Shown piece by piece: positions 44,869 through 59,765 of a DNA stretch of 60,355 nucleotides. The notes under the pieces are model-generated. The model had not been told where the DNA came from. It worked only from the letters and a program-made list of their open reading frames with translations, and did no database searches. The stretch spans positions 1 to 60,355 of the forward strand of contig JAAYKU010000182.1 in the NCBI GenBank assembly GCA_012522275.1. Reading direction: 5' to 3'. The first letter of the stretch is position 1. Each line of letters begins with the position of its first letter. A program made the position numbers and the translations under genes. Source of the stretch: Smithella sp. GTDB taxonomy: Bacteria > Desulfobacterota > Syntrophia > Syntrophales > Smithellaceae.

Positions 44869-45717
44869 TTAAAGAATGCTTTTGTTTGCGCCCGCCCTTG
44901 TCCTGCGACGCTTAGGGGAAAACACAAAGGCGAGTGCAAAAAGAATCGTCGCGGCCAAAACTACAGCCGCTCCGGAAGGTATGTCAAACACATAGGATGC
45001 GGTCAGGCCGGCCAGGCACGCCAGCATGCCCGTCGCCGCTGATATCCAGAAAAAAGTTTTCAGATTGTAAGTCAGCTGCATGGCCACGGCGCCGGGCTGC
45101 ACCAGCAGGGCGAAAATCAAAAGCCCGCCTACGGTGGCGAGGTTAGAGGAAATCACCGCACCGGTAAAAAAAAGCAGGGTATAGTAAATCGCGCGCTCAG
45201 GCACGCCGCTTGCGGCGGCAAGACGGCGATTGAAGAGGACCGCCCGGATTTCCTTGAAAAACAGGACGATAAAGACTGTTAAAGCAATTGTGACAACAGC
45301 CAGTACAGCAAGATCGGCATTGGAAAGAGTCAGAAGACTCCCCCACATCAGACTCAGCGCTGAGGCTTTGCTCCGTGTGAGAATTCCCATTCCTAAAAAC
45401 GCAACCCCCATCAGAAAGGAAAACATGATACCGAGAATGTTTTCGGGCGCCATGTCCGCCCGATCGGAAAGAGGCCCCAAAACAGCCGCCGCCAGCAGGC
45501 ACAGTATGAACCCGCTTAAAAAGGGGTTGAAACCCATCAGCATCCCCAGCACCGCGCCGGCAAATGCCGCGTGCGACATGGAAACGCCGATCAGCGGCAT
45601 TCTCATCAGCACGACAAAAACGGACAGAAGGGCCGAGCCTGCTCCGCACAGTATGCAGGCGGCAAGCGCGCGCTGTATGGGCGGGCAGCTTAGTATTTCC
45701 AGGATGGACTCAACCAT
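44869..45717 (-). CDS. Zn/Mn-type metal ABC transporter permease (ABC-3 family, start revised)
   Basis: MRMPLIGVSMSHAAFAGAVLGMLMGFNP...ATVGGLLIFALLVQPGAVAMQL. Confidence 0.88.
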   Translation of the reverse strand: MVESILEILSCPPIQRALAACILCGAGSALLSVFVVLMRMPLIGVSMSHAAFAGAVLGMLMGFNPFLSGFILCLLAAAVLGPLSDRADMAPENILGIMFSFLMGVAFLGMGILTRSKASALSLMWGSLLTLSNADLAVLAVVTIALTVFIVLFFKEIRAVLFNRRLAAASGVPERAIYYTLLFFTGAVISSNLATVGGLLIFALLVQPGAVAMQLTYNLKTFFWISAATGMLACLAGLTASYVFDIPSGAAVVLAATILFALAFVFSPKRRRTRAGANKSIL

Positions 45718-46492
45718 AAGAAACAAACCGCCTCCCGTTGCGCTCAAATGTTTCCAGCCGATATTCAAACAGGCGGCTCAATACATCCCCTGTAAGAGCC
45801 AAAGCGGCCTCGCCGTCAAAGAACTTTCGCCCGTCTTTGAGCAAGACGGCGCGGCGCAGGCGTGCGGGAAGCATGTTGAAGTCATGAGTGACAAACAAAA
45901 TCGTCAGGGCGCGACTTTCGGAAATTTCATCGATCAGATTCAGGACTTCTTTCTGGACGGCAATATCCAGATTGGCGGTCGGTTCATCGAGCAGCAGCAG
46001 GTCTGGCTGTTGGACAATCGCACGTGCCAGCAGCACTTTTTGTCTTTCTCCGCCGGAGAGATGTCCGAAAGGACGCCCGGCCAGATGGGCGACACGCATC
46101 ATCTCCATCAGACGCAGGGCCTCCATCTGCTCGTGTTTACCCGGCTTGTTAAAAAGCCCTGTCCTGCCGACAGAGCCGGTCATCACCGCCTGGCCGGCAA
46201 GAATCGGAAATCCCGGATCGATTTGCGCCAGTTGCGGCACATAGCCGATGCTGAGCCGCGCGGCGCGTGAGCGGCGCCATGTTTGCCCTTTCCCGAAAAG
46301 ACGAAGCCCGCCTGAAAATTTTTCAAAACCGGCGATGACGTTTAAAAGAGTGGTCTTCCCCGCTCCGTTGGGGCCGATAACCCCCACAAATTCGTTTTTC
46401 TCAATCCGCAGATTTATACCGGACAGCAGAAAGTTTCCGCTCTTGCGTACCGATACGTCTTCTAAAATCAGGGCATGTTCTGTCATTTGCAC
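45710..46492 (-). CDS. Metal ABC transporter ATP-binding protein
   Basis: GVIGPNGAGKTTLLNVIAGF, HLSGGERQKVLLARAI, LLLDEPTANLD. Confidence 0.93.
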   Translation of the reverse strand: MQMTEHALILEDVSVRKSGNFLLSGINLRIEKNEFVGVIGPNGAGKTTLLNVIAGFEKFSGGLRLFGKGQTWRRSRAARLSIGYVPQLAQIDPGFPILAGQAVMTGSVGRTGLFNKPGKHEQMEALRLMEMMRVAHLAGRPFGHLSGGERQKVLLARAIVQQPDLLLLDEPTANLDIAVQKEVLNLIDEISESRALTILFVTHDFNMLPARLRRAVLLKDGRKFFDGEAALALTGDVLSRLFEYRLETFERNGRRFVSYG

Positions 46493-47304
46493 CCCAGGGC
46501 GTTAAGCACCGCTTCAACATTATTTCGCAAAGCGGCCGGATAACCTTCTTCCGACGGATAATTGGTAAGGACAATATGCGGCCTGCCCAGCGCTTCGGCA
46601 ATTCTTATTCCCGCCTCCGGGCCGGACTGGAGATTGTCCACCACCGCCACAACGCGCTCCGCCTTGCCTGTTTTCACTAACCGGGCCGCATCTCTGGCCG
46701 ACAGAGCTTCCGGCCGTCCGTAAACCCCGGCAACACGAAAACCCATCCATGTCAGAAGTTCTTTTTGCATGGAAGAGGCCAAAACGGGCAGGCCCTCAAT
46801 GCCGGCTTTTTGCATCCTTTCCTTGAGCTTTTGCGCCTCTTCGCGAACAAGACGGGTCACCGCCTGCCTCCTGTGTTCGATTTCCTGTCCGTGTTCGGGA
46901 AAATGTCCGGCCAGTCCCTGCGCCAGACGTTCAACACCCAAAAGATAAGAATCGGGCGCCATCCAGTTACGTCCTTCACTGTCAATGAGCAATCTGCGGG
47001 CTCCCGGCTTGCCCATGAGGGTCATGCTGCGCGAATAAATGACCAGGCCGGCTTTCTGAATTTTCTCTATGTCAGAAAATTTTATGTCGTAATGGCCGGG
47101 ACACTGGCCGGGAGGGAAAATCGCCTCGACTCTGTAGCGCGCGTCGGGAAGAAGAGCACGGGCCATATCGGCTAACAGCTCATCGGATGTGATCACCGTA
47201 CAACGCTCATCGGGCGGCCCGGCGCATGCCTGGTCCGTGACAACCATGGAAAAGACCGTTGTCCAAAAAATGAAAAAAAATGTGAAGAATGCTTTTGTTT
47301 TCAT
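46483..47304 (-). CDS. Metal ABC transporter substrate-binding protein (ZnuA/TroA-like, start revised)
   Basis: MKTKAFFTFFFIFWTTVFSMVVTDQACAG signal peptide; IFPPGQCPGHYDIKFSDIEKIQKAGLVIY. Confidence 0.82.
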   Translation of the reverse strand: MKTKAFFTFFFIFWTTVFSMVVTDQACAGPPDERCTVITSDELLADMARALLPDARYRVEAIFPPGQCPGHYDIKFSDIEKIQKAGLVIYSRSMTLMGKPGARRLLIDSEGRNWMAPDSYLLGVERLAQGLAGHFPEHGQEIEHRRQAVTRLVREEAQKLKERMQKAGIEGLPVLASSMQKELLTWMGFRVAGVYGRPEALSARDAARLVKTGKAERVVAVVDNLQSGPEAGIRIAEALGRPHIVLTNYPSEEGYPAALRNNVEAVLNALGCK

Positions 47305-47335
47305 CAGAACAGCCGTCGGCAGCGTGCCTCTGCGC

Positions 47336-49501
47336 TTATAAGCTCTCACTCGGCGCGTCACCGTGTTTAAATTTCAACGTCAGGCCCGCAAATACCGTGA
47401 CACCGGGCATGGAGTAACCCTTATCATATTCATAATGACGGTTGAAAATATTATTGACCGCCACATAGATTTCCGATCCCTGCAGCGACAGTTTTTTACA
47501 GTCGAACGTATAACCGAGCCGGCCGTTGACCAGCACGAAATCTTTCAGCCTGTTGTCGTCGGTAAGCATGGCGAAATTGAAATTTCCGCTTCTTGTGCTG
47601 GTGGCGGCATAGACCTCCTGCAAATACTGGGCGTCCAGTCTGAATTTGATACGCTCCAGAAACAGCCAGCTGAAACCCGCCTGAGCCTGAAAGCCCGGCG
47701 TGTAGGGCATATGGTCCTGCTCAACGCCGTCGCTGCCTGTGGCTCTGGCCCTGATCCAGGTGGCCCCGGCAAATAATTCCATATCTTTCAGGGGCATAAA
47801 AGTTCCGCTGACCTCCACGCCTCTGATCTTGTAGCGGCCGATTGCGTCGTTAAATGAAACAGGTACCGGGCCGAACATATAGGCCTGGAATCTGTCTTTT
47901 CCTTTGTCCTGGAAATAAGTCAGGTTCACAGCCCCCTTTTGCGGCCAGGTATGTGACAGGCTCGCTTCATAATGATCCACGACTTCCGGTGTAATATTTT
48001 GCCAGTAAGCGGCGGCATTGGCCAGGGGCACATCCGTACGGACCATATTCATCAACACAACGGGTAACGGGTAGTTTACGCCGCGCGCGTAGTTGATATT
48101 TATATCCGTGTGCGCGTAGCCCGTTACAAGGCCCGCCTGATACGACGAGGCTGATTTAAACTCATTGTGCCTCAGATATCTGTAACCAGTGGAAGCAATG
48201 GCGTGAAGTCCGTCAGAGCTGCCAAAGAAGTGACTAACCGCCGCATAAGGGGAGAAAAGTACGGTCACGGGGAAATTCCAGGCACGCTCGGCGCGTCCGC
48301 CGTTGATTCCCGGTACGGCCAGTCCGGTGTAAGTCCGCTGACGGTTTTTCAATTCCGAAAAGTCCAGGTCCGCCCCGACAACAACTTCACCACCAGGCCG
48401 GAAAAAGAATCTTTCTTTCGCCCTCACACCGTACAGGACAATCTTCTGCCGCGACCATAGGCCGCCGCTTTCCTCTCCGTAGCGCACGCCTTTGTTGAGC
48501 TCCTGCAGCAGATCAAAATCAGTGTCATTCAAATAAGCCTTGATGTAACCGCTTGCCTTGTCATAGCGATTGTTCAAAGAAAGCGTGGTAAGAAATGTCC
48601 TCGTGTCGAAGCGCTCGGCCATGGGCCAGTTTACACGGTTGTGCGCGGCCGGCATTGTTTCCGGCATGGGGGCCACGGTCTGGCTGTCCACATAATTGGC
48701 CAGAAAACGCACATTCCAGCTTCGCGCAAGGTCATATCCCGCGTTCAGATAATAGCTGTGCTGCTGGGCGCGCGAATGGTCGCGATGACCAGCGGTGGAA
48801 CCCCAGCTCTGGACGGCATAGACATCATAAGGCCCCTTTTTCATGCCTGCCGCAAGGCTCTGGCCAAAGGTGTGAAAACTGCCGCCGCCGGCATCGACAA
48901 TCACCTCACTGCCCGCTTTGTCCATATATCTGGGTTTGACGTTTACCGAAGCGTAGCCGCTGCCGAACTCGGACGGCTGAGGGCTTTTAAATATTTCAAT
49001 GGAGCCGATTGTGGAAAGGGCGATGCCGTCCCCCATCACCTGCCCGAAAAGAGCGCCGAAACGAGGCACATCATCATATAAAATGGCGAAGTCGGATCCG
49101 GGATGGCTTGCTCCCCTGCCGCGGATATACATGCTGTGGCTCGACTGTCCACCCATCAGGTTTTTGCTTTGAAACATCACGCCCGGCACATTGCGCAGCG
49201 CCGAGAGAAAGTCCGGACTGCTTTGTTCTTTAATCTGCTCTTCGGTAACGACGTTATACTGCGTGGCGTAGCGTGTGGTAACCGGCGTTACCGGATTATG
49301 CAGCCGGCTGGTTGTCACGACAATTTCCTGAAGGCGCGCGACATCGTCATCCGTCGCCCGGTTGATGGTCCCGCCGGCAGTTTTTTGCTGCGGCTTTTCT
49401 TTTAAAGCCGGTGCATCGCTGTTTTCCGCAAACAGTGGATAAGGCAGGACAAGCAATAACAGCAGTAAAATCAGACAGCGCTTCCTACGCATTTCCAACA
49501 C
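47336..49501 (-). CDS. TonB-dependent outer-membrane receptor
   Basis: QEIVVTTSRLHNPVTP TonB-box-like region, plug LRNVPGVMFQSKNLMGGQSSHSMYIRGRGASHPGSDFAILYDDVP, C-terminal barrel. Confidence 0.92.
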   Translation of the reverse strand: MLEMRRKRCLILLLLLLVLPYPLFAENSDAPALKEKPQQKTAGGTINRATDDDVARLQEIVVTTSRLHNPVTPVTTRYATQYNVVTEEQIKEQSSPDFLSALRNVPGVMFQSKNLMGGQSSHSMYIRGRGASHPGSDFAILYDDVPRFGALFGQVMGDGIALSTIGSIEIFKSPQPSEFGSGYASVNVKPRYMDKAGSEVIVDAGGGSFHTFGQSLAAGMKKGPYDVYAVQSWGSTAGHRDHSRAQQHSYYLNAGYDLARSWNVRFLANYVDSQTVAPMPETMPAAHNRVNWPMAERFDTRTFLTTLSLNNRYDKASGYIKAYLNDTDFDLLQELNKGVRYGEESGGLWSRQKIVLYGVRAKERFFFRPGGEVVVGADLDFSELKNRQRTYTGLAVPGINGGRAERAWNFPVTVLFSPYAAVSHFFGSSDGLHAIASTGYRYLRHNEFKSASSYQAGLVTGYAHTDININYARGVNYPLPVVLMNMVRTDVPLANAAAYWQNITPEVVDHYEASLSHTWPQKGAVNLTYFQDKGKDRFQAYMFGPVPVSFNDAIGRYKIRGVEVSGTFMPLKDMELFAGATWIRARATGSDGVEQDHMPYTPGFQAQAGFSWLFLERIKFRLDAQYLQEVYAATSTRSGNFNFAMLTDDNRLKDFVLVNGRLGYTFDCKKLSLQGSEIYVAVNNIFNRHYEYDKGYSMPGVTVFAGLTLKFKHGDAPSESL

Positions 49502-53663: not shown

Positions 53664-53696
53664 AAAACCCCCGCAGACTTTCTGCGGGGGTTTTTT
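53664..53696. terminator. Rho-independent terminator between convergent OFA and asparagine-synthetase-like genes
   Basis: aaaacccccgcagactttctgcgggggtttttt. Confidence 0.95.
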
Positions 53697-53727: not shown

Positions 53728-55047
53728 CTACGTTGCTGTACGTCCCATCCAGTCAAGATTTTCCAGATCACCCAGTCTTTCACGGAAAAGCCGGTAGTAG
53801 AGCAGTTCCTCCTTGCCGGTCAGCTCCCAGCCGTTGGGAAGTTTTTTTTCACGCGAGAAATCCGCGTCGGTAACAGCCGATGCCGCATACTGAGCCAGCA
53901 TATTTTGCACGCCCGCTCCCTCCCAGAACTTCACTTTAGCCCGCCGCAAAACCGGACACGGCAGCAGGTCGGAAACCGCCTCGCGCAAAATCCACTTCTC
54001 GATGCCGTCGCGAAGCTTCAGGTCAATTGGTATCTGAAGGGCCAGATCCACCACCTCCGGATCCAAAAAAACAATATGCGTGCGAAGTCCGAAGGCGCCC
54101 CCGCACCGGTCCACGCGCTGCAGAGCCGTGTTGGAAAGACTCTTTGTAATGGTGATCAGCTCAGCCGCCAGCCGTCCTCGCGGCAAGTCTTTGAGATAGG
54201 CATAGCCGGCAAACAACTCATCTGCTCCTTCACCGGAAAAAGCCTCCATCGCATAGCGCCGGATGTGCCTTGCCGCCATATAATGCATGATGCTCGAGCG
54301 CACCAACAGTGCGTCGAATGATTCCAGATGGGCGATGATCTCCGGCAGTGTCTGCAGGATATCATCGCGGGTAACGATAACCTCATGATGTTCTGATTCA
54401 ATAAAGTCCGCAACCATGCGGGCAGGTGCGAAATCGGGCGCACCTGCCACCCCGGCCGCAAACGTCCGCAGCTTTTTTACATGCCTGCGCGCCAGGGCGG
54501 CAAGCAGGCTGGAGTCGAGGCCGCCTGATAAAAAACAGGCCGCCTCATCGGCGTGAATCTGGCTCTGGAGCGCCTTTTCCAGGCGCTTGCGCAGTTTGGC
54601 GGTCAACAAGGCGGGGTCTTCATTTAAAGGGGGCTTTTCACGAAGCTCAAAATAGCGTTCAAGAAACTCTCCGTCATAACGGCAACCGGCGGGAAATTCG
54701 CGTATATCATCTGTGGCAGCCTTAAGGCTTTTTACTTCCGAGGCAAAACACAAGGCGCCGTCCTTTCTCCTTCCGTAGTACAGGGGCGCAACGCCGAAAG
54801 GGTCGCGCTCCATGAAAGGCCGGCCGTTTATCAGGCCTGCAGCAGCATATTGATGATCACTTATCCTGTCTTCCACCTTATCTTCACCGGCCGTATGAGT
54901 CTGGGTATCGTTTCTGACGATACCCAGCGTGGCTCCCGGTAATCTGTCAACAGCAATCTCCCCCCGCCCCCGGTAACGTATAAGGTCGAGCATTTTTACA
55001 ACATCATTTTCAGAATTTTCTGCAAAGATACCGGCAATGGCCGCCAT
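53728..55047 (-). CDS. Asparagine synthetase-like ATP-dependent amide/lactam-forming enzyme with degenerate glutaminase domain
   Basis: Starts MAAIAGIFAENSENDVVKMLDLIRYRGRGE (no Cys2); synthetase PP-loop FLSGGLDSSLLA and AFSGEGADELFAGY intact; SD AAGGAG upstream of ATG 55047. Confidence 0.88.
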   Translation of the reverse strand: MAAIAGIFAENSENDVVKMLDLIRYRGRGEIAVDRLPGATLGIVRNDTQTHTAGEDKVEDRISDHQYAAAGLINGRPFMERDPFGVAPLYYGRRKDGALCFASEVKSLKAATDDIREFPAGCRYDGEFLERYFELREKPPLNEDPALLTAKLRKRLEKALQSQIHADEAACFLSGGLDSSLLAALARRHVKKLRTFAAGVAGAPDFAPARMVADFIESEHHEVIVTRDDILQTLPEIIAHLESFDALLVRSSIMHYMAARHIRRYAMEAFSGEGADELFAGYAYLKDLPRGRLAAELITITKSLSNTALQRVDRCGGAFGLRTHIVFLDPEVVDLALQIPIDLKLRDGIEKWILREAVSDLLPCPVLRRAKVKFWEGAGVQNMLAQYAASAVTDADFSREKKLPNGWELTGKEELLYYRLFRERLGDLENLDWMGRTAT

Positions 55048-55050
55048 CAC

Positions 55051-56943
55051 TCAACTCCTTTGGGAACGCTCTTTGAGCGTCTCTTTCCCGGCGATAATGC
55101 CCGCACGCTGTTTCGCGGATATCACCTTGTCGTTTTCGTCCACAAGGCATACCCCTCCATCCATTGCTTTAGTGCGCCATCGGACAGCTTTTTCAAACTC
55201 CTCACGGCATTCCCACAAATAAGGCACAGGGAGAAAGCCCTCCCGGAAAACCCGGTAAAATCCCTTCGCGCTGTACAAATCAGGAACGGCCGACTCTATC
55301 GCTGCCAGGAGAGTCTGCGCCTCCCCCAGCAGATGCTGTGTCCTGCGTCCAACTTCTTCATTGTGTTCCATATTGTCCATATTGCCGTTTCTTTTCTGAT
55401 GGCGGTATTCCTGAAGCGCAAATCGTGTAATCTGAATACTTTCATTGATCACAGACGGGTCGGCCAGGTGCGATGCTTCAGAATAGCTGACCACGTGAAT
55501 CATGGGCGGGCTTCCCGGGTCGTCCGGCTCGATGTCGTCCATCAAAGCGGTGAGAGCCGCAAGCTGCGCTTTAGCTTTTTCCAGATCATGGGAAAAATAG
55601 TCAAGCCCCCCGCGCGGCTGTAAAATCACCGAAAAATGCCTTCCTTCGAGCTGCCTCACCAGTTTGAGCGTCGCACGTGCTTTGGCCAGATCCTGTATGC
55701 CCCAGGTCCAGCGCGGCGTATTGAGCATGTTTTGTAAAACCAGACGGCTGATGCCCATTTTCCCGGCCAAGCGCGCGGCCAGAACCACGGAAACAATGCA
55801 GGTGACATCGTCGGCGCCGCGAAAGGCGAAATGATGAGGCACATTAGGCTCGAAGGGCTTGCCTGTCGCAGCGATATAGCGCAGGGTCTCTACGTGCTGC
55901 TGCAGATTTTCGTGAAGCGTATTCGGGCCACGGCCGTCGATCATGCAAAACCACCACAGAGAAAGGGCGTGCCACGCGATGTTGAGCGAATTTTCATGAA
56001 TCCGGGCAAGCTTGGGGACATTGCTCGTTCCCGCGTATGTCCGCACAAGCATGGGCCGCGCCGCTTCGTTTATCGCTTCATATTCTTGGCCTGAATTGAT
56101 GGGCACGCCCCCGCCGTTGGGTTTTTCTCCCCAGTCTTCACCAAAATTCGATTGGGTGAGCTGCGAGGTTCCGATGGACAACACATCCAGAAAACCGGCG
56201 GCGGCCAGGTTTTTTGTCCAGTCAATAAACAGACGCACCGCCTCATCACGCTTCGGCACAAAAGGCCCGACATGAGCGCGTATCACAGGCGGCAGTCCCC
56301 GCCTGCGGCCGTCGGCGATTCTTGCGGTCAGCGTGTCTTTCTTTGTCGCGTATCCTTCATACCCGCTGCGGTCCACCGGCTTGACGCCAAGATAGTCGCC
56401 CCGGCGGATGAGTTCTCTGGCAAACGACATTCTCCCTTCGTCATAGGCCATGCCGGAAGAAAGCCCGGCAGGCGCCCAGATGCTTTCTACTCCCAGTATG
56501 GAAAGGGTCTCCAGCGGCGTTTCATCCCCGGCAAAAACTCCTGACACTTCCGCTACCATCCGGCGGACGCGCTCGCAGGCGGCCGGCAGGCCGGCAAAAA
56601 ACAGGCCCCGCAAGGGCCCTCCCTGGCGTGCCAGAAGGCGTCTGTCTTTGAGGCGCTCAACCCAGCGGGCAAAAAGCTCCGCTCCCTTCTGCGGATCCAG
56701 ACGGTAGCTGAATCCCAGCATCGTAATACGTCGGGAACGCAGCCACTGCTCAAACTCATCGATAGCTTTTGCATCCTGCGGATGAGCGAGCGCCTCGCAT
56801 ATGCGCGCGTCGGCGATCAGCGCCTCTATCTTGCAGTCCTGCAGCAGCTGATAGACGGAGTAAATGCCCAGCGTGTGAGCTTCCAGGCCCGGACGCACCA
56901 GCCCGAAGCGGTCGGATCGTCTGGTTGTGACAGTCTTCATCAC
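55051..56943 (-). CDS. B12-dependent mutase-like protein (methylaspartate mutase E-like, tentative)
   Basis: N-terminal Rossmann-like region with E-A-H-T-L-G (resembles the DxHxxG cobalamin motif) followed by a barrel-like region (GGGVPINSGQEYEAINEAARPMLVRTYAG...). Confidence 0.45.
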   Translation of the reverse strand: MMKTVTTRRSDRFGLVRPGLEAHTLGIYSVYQLLQDCKIEALIADARICEALAHPQDAKAIDEFEQWLRSRRITMLGFSYRLDPQKGAELFARWVERLKDRRLLARQGGPLRGLFFAGLPAACERVRRMVAEVSGVFAGDETPLETLSILGVESIWAPAGLSSGMAYDEGRMSFARELIRRGDYLGVKPVDRSGYEGYATKKDTLTARIADGRRRGLPPVIRAHVGPFVPKRDEAVRLFIDWTKNLAAAGFLDVLSIGTSQLTQSNFGEDWGEKPNGGGVPINSGQEYEAINEAARPMLVRTYAGTSNVPKLARIHENSLNIAWHALSLWWFCMIDGRGPNTLHENLQQHVETLRYIAATGKPFEPNVPHHFAFRGADDVTCIVSVVLAARLAGKMGISRLVLQNMLNTPRWTWGIQDLAKARATLKLVRQLEGRHFSVILQPRGGLDYFSHDLEKAKAQLAALTALMDDIEPDDPGSPPMIHVVSYSEASHLADPSVINESIQITRFALQEYRHQKRNGNMDNMEHNEEVGRRTQHLLGEAQTLLAAIESAVPDLYSAKGFYRVFREGFLPVPYLWECREEFEKAVRWRTKAMDGGVCLVDENDKVISAKQRAGIIAGKETLKERSQRS

Positions 56944-58604
56944 GTTCCTCCGTGGTGTCCGTGCCTGCCGAATCCCAGCTGCAGTGTATAGTCAATCTCT
57001 TTAGGCTTGCCCGGCTTTAATTCCATATTCTTATTTTCAGCGCCGACAATAAAAAAACGGATATCCTTAACCGACATGCCGGCAATGCCCAGCTTGTCCA
57101 CTGTTCTGCCCAAGGCCATATAATCCACACCGTGCATGATGGAGGCCAGGTGTATAATCGAGCGCATGGCGGGCGTAGGCACGCCGAGCATCTGACCGAT
57201 AGACGCTATAGGTACCAGACTGGCAGGGACATCTTCGGCAATGTAGCGATGGTGAACCGTTGATGTCGCCATGATGCCGCGGTAGCCCGGGTTGGCGCGC
57301 ATCGCCTCCAGAAGCGTTTTTCCTGCCGCGTTGTAGGCCAGATAGAGCCATTCCCGCGCCGTATTGGCGCGGATGCCCAGCGCGGCGGCAACGGCCACGC
57401 GCTCTTCGTCGATCGCCTCCAGAATATCGGCGACAGCGGGCGTCACCCCTTCGAGGTAAAACTGAAAATCGCCGTTTGTGTCCTCGATGCGCCCTGAATT
57501 CAAAATGGTAATCGCAGGATGAAAAACAGCGCCGATATTGTCCAGTCCGGTTTTCAGTACATTATCCCCCGGCACAAACTGCGGCAGCGCGGTTCTGATC
57601 ACAGGCAGAATGTCTGCTGTCTGATAGGAGGGCAAAGCGGCCAGCGGCACGGAATTTTTGATTCCGAAAATATGAACCTGCCCCGGGTTGGTCAGACGCG
57701 ATGCATATATCAGCGTCTGCGCCTCTGCGATATAAGGGTGCACATCGGGATTGATCGTTTTCAGCACCTGCGCGAACTCGAGGGCTCCGCCTGTTCTGCC
57801 GGGATTGAGCACGATAATCTGCCCGTCGCAAATGTGCGGAGCGATAATCTGCGCCACATTGCGATGTGCCGTCGCCGGCACCACCACCATCAAAACATCG
57901 CAGTCCCCGACAGCTTGTGCGGCTTCCGTCGTGACGATATTGAGCTTAGCCAGACCCTGCACTTCACCCGTCACGTCGATCCCCCCGCGGGCTACAATGG
58001 GGGCGAGACGGTCAAAATTCCTTGTGAACAAATTTACTTTCCGTCCCATCAGCGCCAGGTGACCCGCCATCGCCATACCTCCCGCGCCCGCACCCAGTAC
58101 GCAGAAACGCGGGGAACTGGTCTCTTCGACCACCTCGCCTAGCAGCGCCTCCATCATTTCCAGTACGGAAACGATTTCCTGCGGACTTTCCGCCGACAGC
58201 AGACTATGAACAAACTCCTCATGCTCGCACATATTGGCGAGACGGATTAAAACACGCACATAAAGATCGTGTGTTTGCGGAGGGGCAAGTAAAAGAAAAA
58301 TCAGATGCGCGTGTTCACCGGGGGCATCTCCCCACAAAACGCCTTCACGACTGGTGGCCACTGCCAGCAGCGGCTGCTTGCATGCCTGTGAAATGCTATG
58401 CGGTATCGCCACAAAATATTTCCCTGCCTGCATGCGTATAAGATAGCTTCTTTCATGAACGGCGATATCACGGACAGCCAGCTTTTTATCAAGACCCCAG
58501 ACACGGCGTGCAACATCAAGAAGCCGGTCGATGACTTCCTTGCGTCCTTTGGCCTTGATATTGACTATCGCTGATTCCGGTTTCAATATTTCGGCAATTT
58601 GCAT
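56940..58604 (-). CDS. PTS EIIA domain fused to octopine/nopaline-type opine dehydrogenase
   Basis: N-terminus GKYFVAIPHSIS...HLIFLLLAPPQTHDLYVRVLIRLANM (EIIA-Ntr-like, His kept); C-terminus FCVLGAGAGGMAMAGHLALMGRKVNLFTRN...NPGRTGGALEF...NIGAVFHPAITILNSGRIE. Confidence 0.9.
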   Translation of the reverse strand: MQIAEILKPESAIVNIKAKGRKEVIDRLLDVARRVWGLDKKLAVRDIAVHERSYLIRMQAGKYFVAIPHSISQACKQPLLAVATSREGVLWGDAPGEHAHLIFLLLAPPQTHDLYVRVLIRLANMCEHEEFVHSLLSAESPQEIVSVLEMMEALLGEVVEETSSPRFCVLGAGAGGMAMAGHLALMGRKVNLFTRNFDRLAPIVARGGIDVTGEVQGLAKLNIVTTEAAQAVGDCDVLMVVVPATAHRNVAQIIAPHICDGQIIVLNPGRTGGALEFAQVLKTINPDVHPYIAEAQTLIYASRLTNPGQVHIFGIKNSVPLAALPSYQTADILPVIRTALPQFVPGDNVLKTGLDNIGAVFHPAITILNSGRIEDTNGDFQFYLEGVTPAVADILEAIDEERVAVAAALGIRANTAREWLYLAYNAAGKTLLEAMRANPGYRGIMATSTVHHRYIAEDVPASLVPIASIGQMLGVPTPAMRSIIHLASIMHGVDYMALGRTVDKLGIAGMSVKDIRFFIVGAENKNMELKPGKPKEIDYTLQLGFGRHGHHGGT

Positions 58605-58885
58605 TGTTCCTCCTTACAGCTGAAGATAGCTCCACTATAACGGGCTTTCGTCAAAAATAACGCTTCTTGCGCCATTGTGTGCACTTGTTTTTTTGAAATA
58701 ATTAAACAAGGCAGCTTCTATCGAAGCCCGCGCCTCTGCCTTGGGCATCGGCAATCAAATTAGTGATGCTGGGTTGGCGATCCGTTTTTGTCAAATCGCT
58801 GAGTTATCCAGAGAACCGGCTGAAAAGCATGGCACTCCTTTACTTTCGTCGCGGCGGCTGCTGCGTCTGAGCCGCCCGGCTCGAA

Positions 58886-58938
58886 CCGTTTCCATACCCG
58901 CCGTGTGTGATCGTAAAAGTAGAAGGGATGGGAAACGG
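58886..58938. repeat. Inverted repeat in long intergenic region upstream of the opine dehydrogenase operon
   Basis: CCGTTTCCATACCC ... GGGATGGGAAACGG. Confidence 0.6.
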
Positions 58939-59174
58939 CTGACGGCCAAAGGAATTGCTTTAGGTGATCGTTAGTATAGGTAATGCGCCTTGTGATGTCA
59001 ATAAAGAATTCTCTCCAACCTTATCATGATAATCGGCAGTCAGTTTAAAGGGATAGCGGGATTACTCCCTCCGGGCGAAAAATTATTTTCCCAAGGAGAA
59101 GGACCGCCGGTGAATTTGACAGATTCATTTTAGCGCTCTATAATCATTGAAATCATCTGTCACGGGAGTCATGT

Positions 59175-59765
59175 ATGGACATTGCCGCAATTTATCATTC
59201 GGAGATATTCAGAACCGGAATTCTGGCTGCTATGATTTTTCTGGCCCGCATCTGTGACGTTTCGCTGAGCACCCTGCGTATAATCTATACTTCCCGCGGC
59301 ATTAGATTCCTCGCGCCGGTCATCGGTTTTTTCGAAGTTCTGGTGTGGCTTATCGCCATGTCCCAGATTATCAACAATCTCACCAATCCCATACTTTATG
59401 TCGCTTACGCGGGGGGATTCGCGATGGGAAACTTTGTCGGGATTTTCATCGAGGAAAAAATGGCCATCGGAAGTGTGGTCATCCGGATCATCACACAAAA
59501 AGACGCTTCCAATCTTATCGTCCTGCTCAAAGAAGCGGGCTTCGGGATAACACACATTGACGCACAAGGTGCGATGGGCATGGTTAAAATAATTTTCACC
59601 ATTGTACGCAGAAAAGACATAAAACCTGTTTTAAATATTGTCAGCCGGTGCAACCCGATGTCGTTTTACACTATCGAGGACGTCCGCGGCGTTCGCAAAG
59701 GCGTTTTCCCTATTATCAAAAAAGGCAACGGCATAAGCAATATCCTCCACCTGCCGCGGGATTGA
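59175..59765 (+). CDS. UPF0316 / DUF2179-containing membrane protein
   Basis: FLARICDVSLSTLRIIYTSRGIRFLAPVIGFFEVLVWLIAMSQIINNL...YAGGFAMGNFVGIFIEEKMAIG. Confidence 0.88.
   Translation: MDIAAIYHSEIFRTGILAAMIFLARICDVSLSTLRIIYTSRGIRFLAPVIGFFEVLVWLIAMSQIINNLTNPILYVAYAGGFAMGNFVGIFIEEKMAIGSVVIRIITQKDASNLIVLLKEAGFGITHIDAQGAMGMVKIIFTIVRRKDIKPVLNIVSRCNPMSFYTIEDVRGVRKGVFPIIKKGNGISNILHLPRD

Follow-up and report, generated by a model that had tools for sequence, protein, structure and literature searches.

A conserved bacterial operon joining an opine dehydrogenase to a putative B12-dependent mutase: a possible route to an amidated compatible solute

Introduction

What would a bacterium make with an opine dehydrogenase, a relative of glutamate mutase and an asparagine synthetase homologue encoded side by side? 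The question is raised by a stretch of DNA from Smithella sp. (assembly GCA_012522275.1, contig JAAYKU010000182.1; 60,355 nucleotides, hereafter the window), where three such genes lie in one apparent operon. Opine chemistry has so far been known mostly from crown galls, metallophores and invertebrate anaerobiosis. A first-pass annotation of the window knew of no described pathway with this set of genes, and none was found in the open-access literature (subscription journals being outside the scope), which held no paper on an opine dehydrogenase with a glutamate mutase, or with an asparagine synthetase and a gene cluster.

Here we argue that the operon most likely encodes a compatible-solute pathway operating under salt stress and ending in an amidated opine-type amino acid, a reading that we hold to be somewhat better than evenly balanced and that takes its function from the genomic context of relatives. 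If true, it would add a vitamin B12-dependent route to a compatible solute, would link opine chemistry to salt stress in uncultured anaerobes that inhabit digesters and sediments, and would imply an undescribed metabolite as well as a mutase family without a Pfam entry. The enzyme classes, catalytic residues, conservation of the operon and neighbors in related loci are read from sequences or structural models. Loci from other genomes are given numbers prefixed by L.

Organization of the operon

Three minus-strand open reading frames, tightly coupled and in the order ODH-MUT-ASN, were confirmed at 53728-58604 of the window. The features of the locus are as follows.

53664..53694, no strand: bidirectional intrinsic terminator with a 14-bp stem (sequence analysis)
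53728..55047, minus: ASN, an AsnB-type amide synthetase with a dead, truncated glutaminase (Cys1 to Ala), 439 aa
55051..56940 (ATG start), minus: MUT, a B12-binding domain and a glutamate-mutase-E-like barrel, 629 aa
56940..58604, minus: ODH, an EIIA-fused, CENDH-like opine dehydrogenase, 554 aa (Pfam, phmmer)
58158..58589, minus: EIIA domain of ODH, residues 6-149 (Pfam)
58973..59001, minus: sigma-70-like promoter, TTGACA-17-TATACT (11/12), about 370 nt before ODH

The TGA of ODH and the ATG of MUT share 1 nt, and the ATG of ASN lies 3 nt past the MUT stop, with an AAGGAG sequence over the 3' end of MUT. The coupling described in the first-pass annotation therefore stands, but its GTG starts do not: the ATGs are most likely the true starts, and the 4-nt overlap that it reported between ODH and MUT would apply only if the GTG at 56943 were used. 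The strong terminator that it described was recovered between ASN and a convergent OFA/MFS transporter gene, and is common to both.

The leader of the operon (58605-58973) is partly conserved in L012, from the same genus, and in L014. It gave no match above chance to Rfam at a permissive E-value, and may be an undescribed regulatory RNA. Divergent from the operon, a DUF5698/DUF2179 membrane protein is encoded at 59175-59765, an arrangement repeated in L012; in L013 a protein of this type (L013:13280-13852) is encoded directly 3' of ASN on the same strand.

The three enzymes

ODH conforms to its first description as an opine dehydrogenase with an EIIA domain. It matches Pfam Octopine_DH (PF02317; E 4.5e-48) together with a Rossmann domain, and its N-terminus matches PTS_EIIA_2 (E 7e-20), with a candidate phospho-His within the motif AIPHS. 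Its nearest relative in the PDB is CENDH (1bg6; phmmer E 7e-78), and homology to CENDH/ArODH extends over the full length of the dehydrogenase part (profile E 1e-110). His202, Arg292 and Asp297 of CENDH, which we take to be its catalytic residues, align with H362, R453 and D458 of ODH, and these positions are invariant in 17 homologues. Unlike CENDH/ArODH, the window protein carries the fused EIIA domain, and the ODH of these loci stands in fixed partnership with a B12 mutase.

MUT is less readily classified. The window protein has no meaningful match in Pfam or NCBIfam, no Pfam family of its own, and no match to Met_asp_mut_E (PF06368) in either collection; a sequence-only search of the PDB likewise returned no match. 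Its early description as B12-mutase-like is borne out by its homologues and its predicted fold rather than by a Pfam match of its own. Pfam B12-binding matches 14 of the 23 homologues (best E 6e-5; the window protein itself is unmatched), and the AlphaFold2 model of MUT (pLDDT 88) has glutamate mutase E as its top PDB match (1cb7_B; Foldseek E 5e-12), followed by lysine 5,6- and then ornithine 4,5-aminomutase. A DxHxxG-like motif near the N-terminus reads E20-A-H22-T-L-G25 in the window; among the homologues its His and Gly are invariant, and the first place is Asp or Glu in nearly all. Judging from the modeled fold and these homologues, we infer that MUT is an AdoCbl-dependent mutase related to glutamate mutase.

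How closely it resembles that enzyme bears on its substrate. A MUT profile aligned with ten GlmE sequences over 334 columns, including the C-terminal part, a match that is weak alone (E 0.022). In this weak profile alignment R149, E171 and E330 of GlmE map to R300, D335 and E488 of MUT, R66 probably corresponds to R221, and the position of R100 is held by Gln263. R66, R100 and R149 presumably make up the arginine claw of glutamate mutase, and glutamate is not assured as the MUT substrate because Gln263 stands in the R100 position. MUT also differs from glutamate mutase (GlmE/MutE with GlmS) in that its B12 domain is fused N-terminally.

A second protein, MUT2, occupies the middle slot of the operon in L056, L095 and L097 and is 29% identical to the window MUT. 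That of L056 has a clear Pfam B12-binding match (7.5e-12), and the model of the L097 protein (pLDDT 80) again finds glutamate mutase as its best PDB match (E 2e-14). MUT and MUT2 have in common the polar positions R221/H223/Q260/Q263/R300/D335. That two different mutases fill one operon frame argues that the B12 step belongs to the pathway.

ASN has the PP-loop synthetase domain of AsnB (Asn_synthase, E 1e-57), complete with the SGGLDSS PP-loop and the SGEGxDE motif. Its N-terminus reads M-A-A-I-A-G-I-F where M-C-G is expected, Cys1 thus being Ala, and its GATase domain is shortened to about 115 residues, likewise in its homologues; the loss of glutaminase seen on first pass is real. ASN further departs from AsnB in having Leu-Leu-x-Arg in place of a Thr-Thr-x-Arg stretch (D-A-L-L-V-R in the dead ASN versus D-V-T-T-I-R in canonical AsnB).

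Sister operons in L095 and L092 encode AsnB-type enzymes that retain Cys1 and a complete GATase domain. In L095 the gene lies inside the operon, between MUT2 and ODH; in L092 it is on the ODH strand, one gene from ODH, which it precedes together with a CitMHS transporter gene. At only 36-45% identity to the dead ASN, these enzymes might be paralogues that were recruited. They read D-A-P-L-V-R at the stretch above, a motif that may be general to an AsnB subfamily outside the sequences compared. The intact Cys1 and full glutaminase of these sister operons make plain amidation with ammonia the simplest interpretation of the ASN step, as far as sequence can indicate it, and remove the main support for ring closure. 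The window ASN would then use free ammonia. Because ASN is not adjacent in six loci (L016, L096, L088, L093, L094 and L030), amidation may be optional or done elsewhere.

Distribution and conservation

Scanning the genomes of about 85,000 species for matches to the MUT alignment yielded 24 loci, to which targeted searches added more. MUT is rare: within the class of the window 7 of 155 genomes encode it, as do 3-5 of about 240-300 genomes in each of four further samples, two of which overlapped. Its hosts are mostly uncultured anaerobes. A search of plasmids found no MUT, and ASN matches there were only to ordinary AsnB-type proteins.

The gene-neighborhood search proposed on first pass, in which a set that never recurred would have spoken against a common pathway, found the genes together elsewhere. 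ODH adjoins MUT in 28 of the 33 loci with readable flanks, across many phyla. Among the 18 loci that make up the window's clade and the MUT2 group, 11 bring together the functions of ODH, MUT and ASN. The recurrence of ODH-MUT-ASN in other genomes means that the gene order is not a product of chance. A tree of 36 MUT and MUT2 proteins, built by a quick method with SH-aLRT support only, separates the window's clade (15 loci, SH-aLRT 94) from clostridial, polysaccharide-cluster and ligase/racemase clades and from MUT2. ASN was found only in the window's clade and the MUT2 group, with none in the other MUT clades.

Osmotic-stress context in related loci

The neighbors of the operon in these relatives are what suggest its function, a context that goes beyond the first-pass annotation. 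A mechanosensitive-channel gene lies in or beside the operon in 11 of 18 loci (15 of the window's clade and 3 with MUT2); the 20 loci from the remaining MUT clades have none, a zero that is slightly generous given that several of their flanks are short. Nine of the channels are PF05552-type proteins encoded inside operons, and a full MscS is encoded beside L013 and L097. The L093 protein falls just below the PF05552 cut-off; the L018 channel, missed in the protein scan, passes in the per-genome PF05552 count and shares 54% identity with the L017 protein. Most spacings between genes within the operons fall between -32 and +37 nt. With only 0-3 PF05552 matches per genome, mostly the operon copy, it is implausible that the genes came to be neighbors by chance in different phyla (raw counts, with kinship ignored).

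Single loci add to this picture. In L088 a Na_H_Exchanger fused to PTS_EIIA_2, the same module as on the window ODH, is encoded 2 nt after MUT. An nhaA-I riboswitch lies 132 nt upstream of ODH in L018 (a single case); this riboswitch class senses Li+, with Na+-sensing variants (PMC9646797), and Na+ riboswitches precede the osmoprotectant aminomutase genes ablA and eam (PMC9337991). At L011/L014, also a single case, an ectABC-like (ectoine synthase) cluster lies 1.9 kb upstream, with two genes between it and ODH. An Rfam scan of seven further loci returned nothing above chance, leaving L018 as the sole positive. In the window itself, neither a channel or exchanger gene nor a known riboswitch neighbors the operon; the osmotic link rests on these relatives.

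Separately, a c-di-AMP riboswitch in a clostridial locus (L028:2731-2858; 79 bits) was considered and set aside, as it lies 6 kb upstream of ODH-MUT and not directly before it.

The EIIA domain is fused to ODH in the window and in L012, L013, L014, L016 and L096. When these loci are set against L017, L018, L030 and L088-L095, the EIIA fusion and an in-operon channel protein prove almost mutually exclusive, as if they were alternative regulatory modules.

Proposed pathway

We infer the substrates, step order, product and function of the operon as follows. ODH would condense an amino acid reductively with a 2-keto acid, most likely pyruvate, to yield an N-carboxyalkyl amino acid. MUT would rearrange the carbon skeleton of either the amino-acid substrate or the opine, and may act before ODH. 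ASN would adenylate one carboxylate and add ammonia to form a carboxamide, an amidation that would turn a net-negative imino-diacid into a neutral zwitterion, a charge suited to a compatible solute. In relatives, down-shock would let the solute out through the mechanosensitive-channel protein encoded in the same operon. Through the EIIA domain of ODH, synthesis would be linked to the PEP/pyruvate or K+ state (PTS-Ntr).

The nearest precedent (PMC8070244) is N-acetylglutaminylglutamine amide (NAGGN), an amidated osmolyte whose synthesis involves an AsnB-type enzyme. The two systems resemble each other in the AsnB-type enzyme, the osmoprotectant operon and an amidated amino-acid derivative as product. 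The GNAT acetyltransferase and peptidase genes of the NAGGN pathway are absent here, however, and an opine dehydrogenase and a B12 mutase are present instead.

Alternative explanations

Two other readings survive best, each of them unlikely. The first is that the operon makes an opine-type acyl group, carried on an amino sugar, for a surface polysaccharide or glycolipid. Alanopine does occur in the O-antigen of Providencia alcalifaciens O35 (PMC10609480), and a separate MUT clade (L009/L032, L027, L089) is found in polysaccharide clusters, among neighbors that include a DegT aminotransferase, an ATP-grasp ligase, glycosyltransferases, and ABC export or NeuB-like genes. The ODH-MUT pairs of L009/L032 and L089 may supply surface sugars with opine-type acyl groups. 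The window's clade is distinct from that clade (SH-aLRT 94), however, having channels and an AsnB-type ASN instead, and in neither the window nor most loci of its clade does a glycosyltransferase or sugar gene adjoin the operon.

Equally improbable, in our estimation, is a catabolic operon, in which MUT would feed a glutamate-mutase-type fermentation, ODH would oxidize an opine, and ASN would be a scavenging amide synthetase. This would suit hosts that are mostly uncultured anaerobes and a MUT fold nearest to the glutamate mutase of methylaspartate fermentation, as well as the ten clostridial MUT loci, some of which have no ODH nearby. An amide synthetase that spends ATP would nonetheless be out of place in such a pathway, as would a channel protein, and neither methylaspartase nor citramalate genes were noticed next to the operon.

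Less probable than either is a beta-lactam or other lactam product, with ASN closing a ring on the opine. The first-pass annotation had proposed that ASN either amidates or cyclizes; amidation fits the intact glutaminases of L095 and L092, and lactam closure now appears unlikely. The dead glutaminase is a trait of beta-lactam synthetase and CarA alike, and ODH would yield a secondary-amine acid. By profile, ASN is nonetheless far nearer to AsnB (231 bits) than to CarA (82 bits) or beta-lactam synthetase (93 bits), its intact counterparts in the sister operons are AsnB-type, and no resistance, export or tailoring genes lie alongside. On chemical reasoning, moreover, an N-(1-carboxyalkyl) alpha-amino acid could close on the opine carboxylate only to a strained three-membered ring.

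Least probable is an opine-type metallophore, the role floated on first pass from the TonB receptor and metal-type ABC genes at 44869-49501 and in keeping with the opine dehydrogenase step of staphylopine, pseudopaline and other known opine metallophores (PMC7438024), since those TonB/ABC genes are absent from 20 locus records, including the same-genus L010/L012 (generic ABC ATPases in L093 excepted), no nicotianamine-synthase-type gene was noticed among the neighbors, and known opine metallophore pathways have neither mutase nor amidation.

Variation beyond the window's clade

If the compatible-solute reading is extended to the family as a whole, it becomes more tentative, and we would put it somewhat below even: an osmolyte pathway that depends on B12, is widespread though rare, and ends in a rearranged, amidated opine. 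Its ODH-mutase core would make a new amino-acid skeleton, which in other clades would be attached to surface polysaccharides or coupled to a further amino acid. In the clade of L054 and L091, the genes after ODH-MUT encode an Orr-like racemase and an ATP-grasp protein resembling D-Ala-D-Ala ligase, and in L096 an alanine racemase adjoins ODH-MUT. These racemases hint at the possible use of a D-amino acid as substrate. As a minor observation, a T-box leader match (L093:7928-8159, minus strand; 64 bits, below the gathering score) precedes an aminoacyl-tRNA-synthetase-like gene upstream of the MUT operon in L093.
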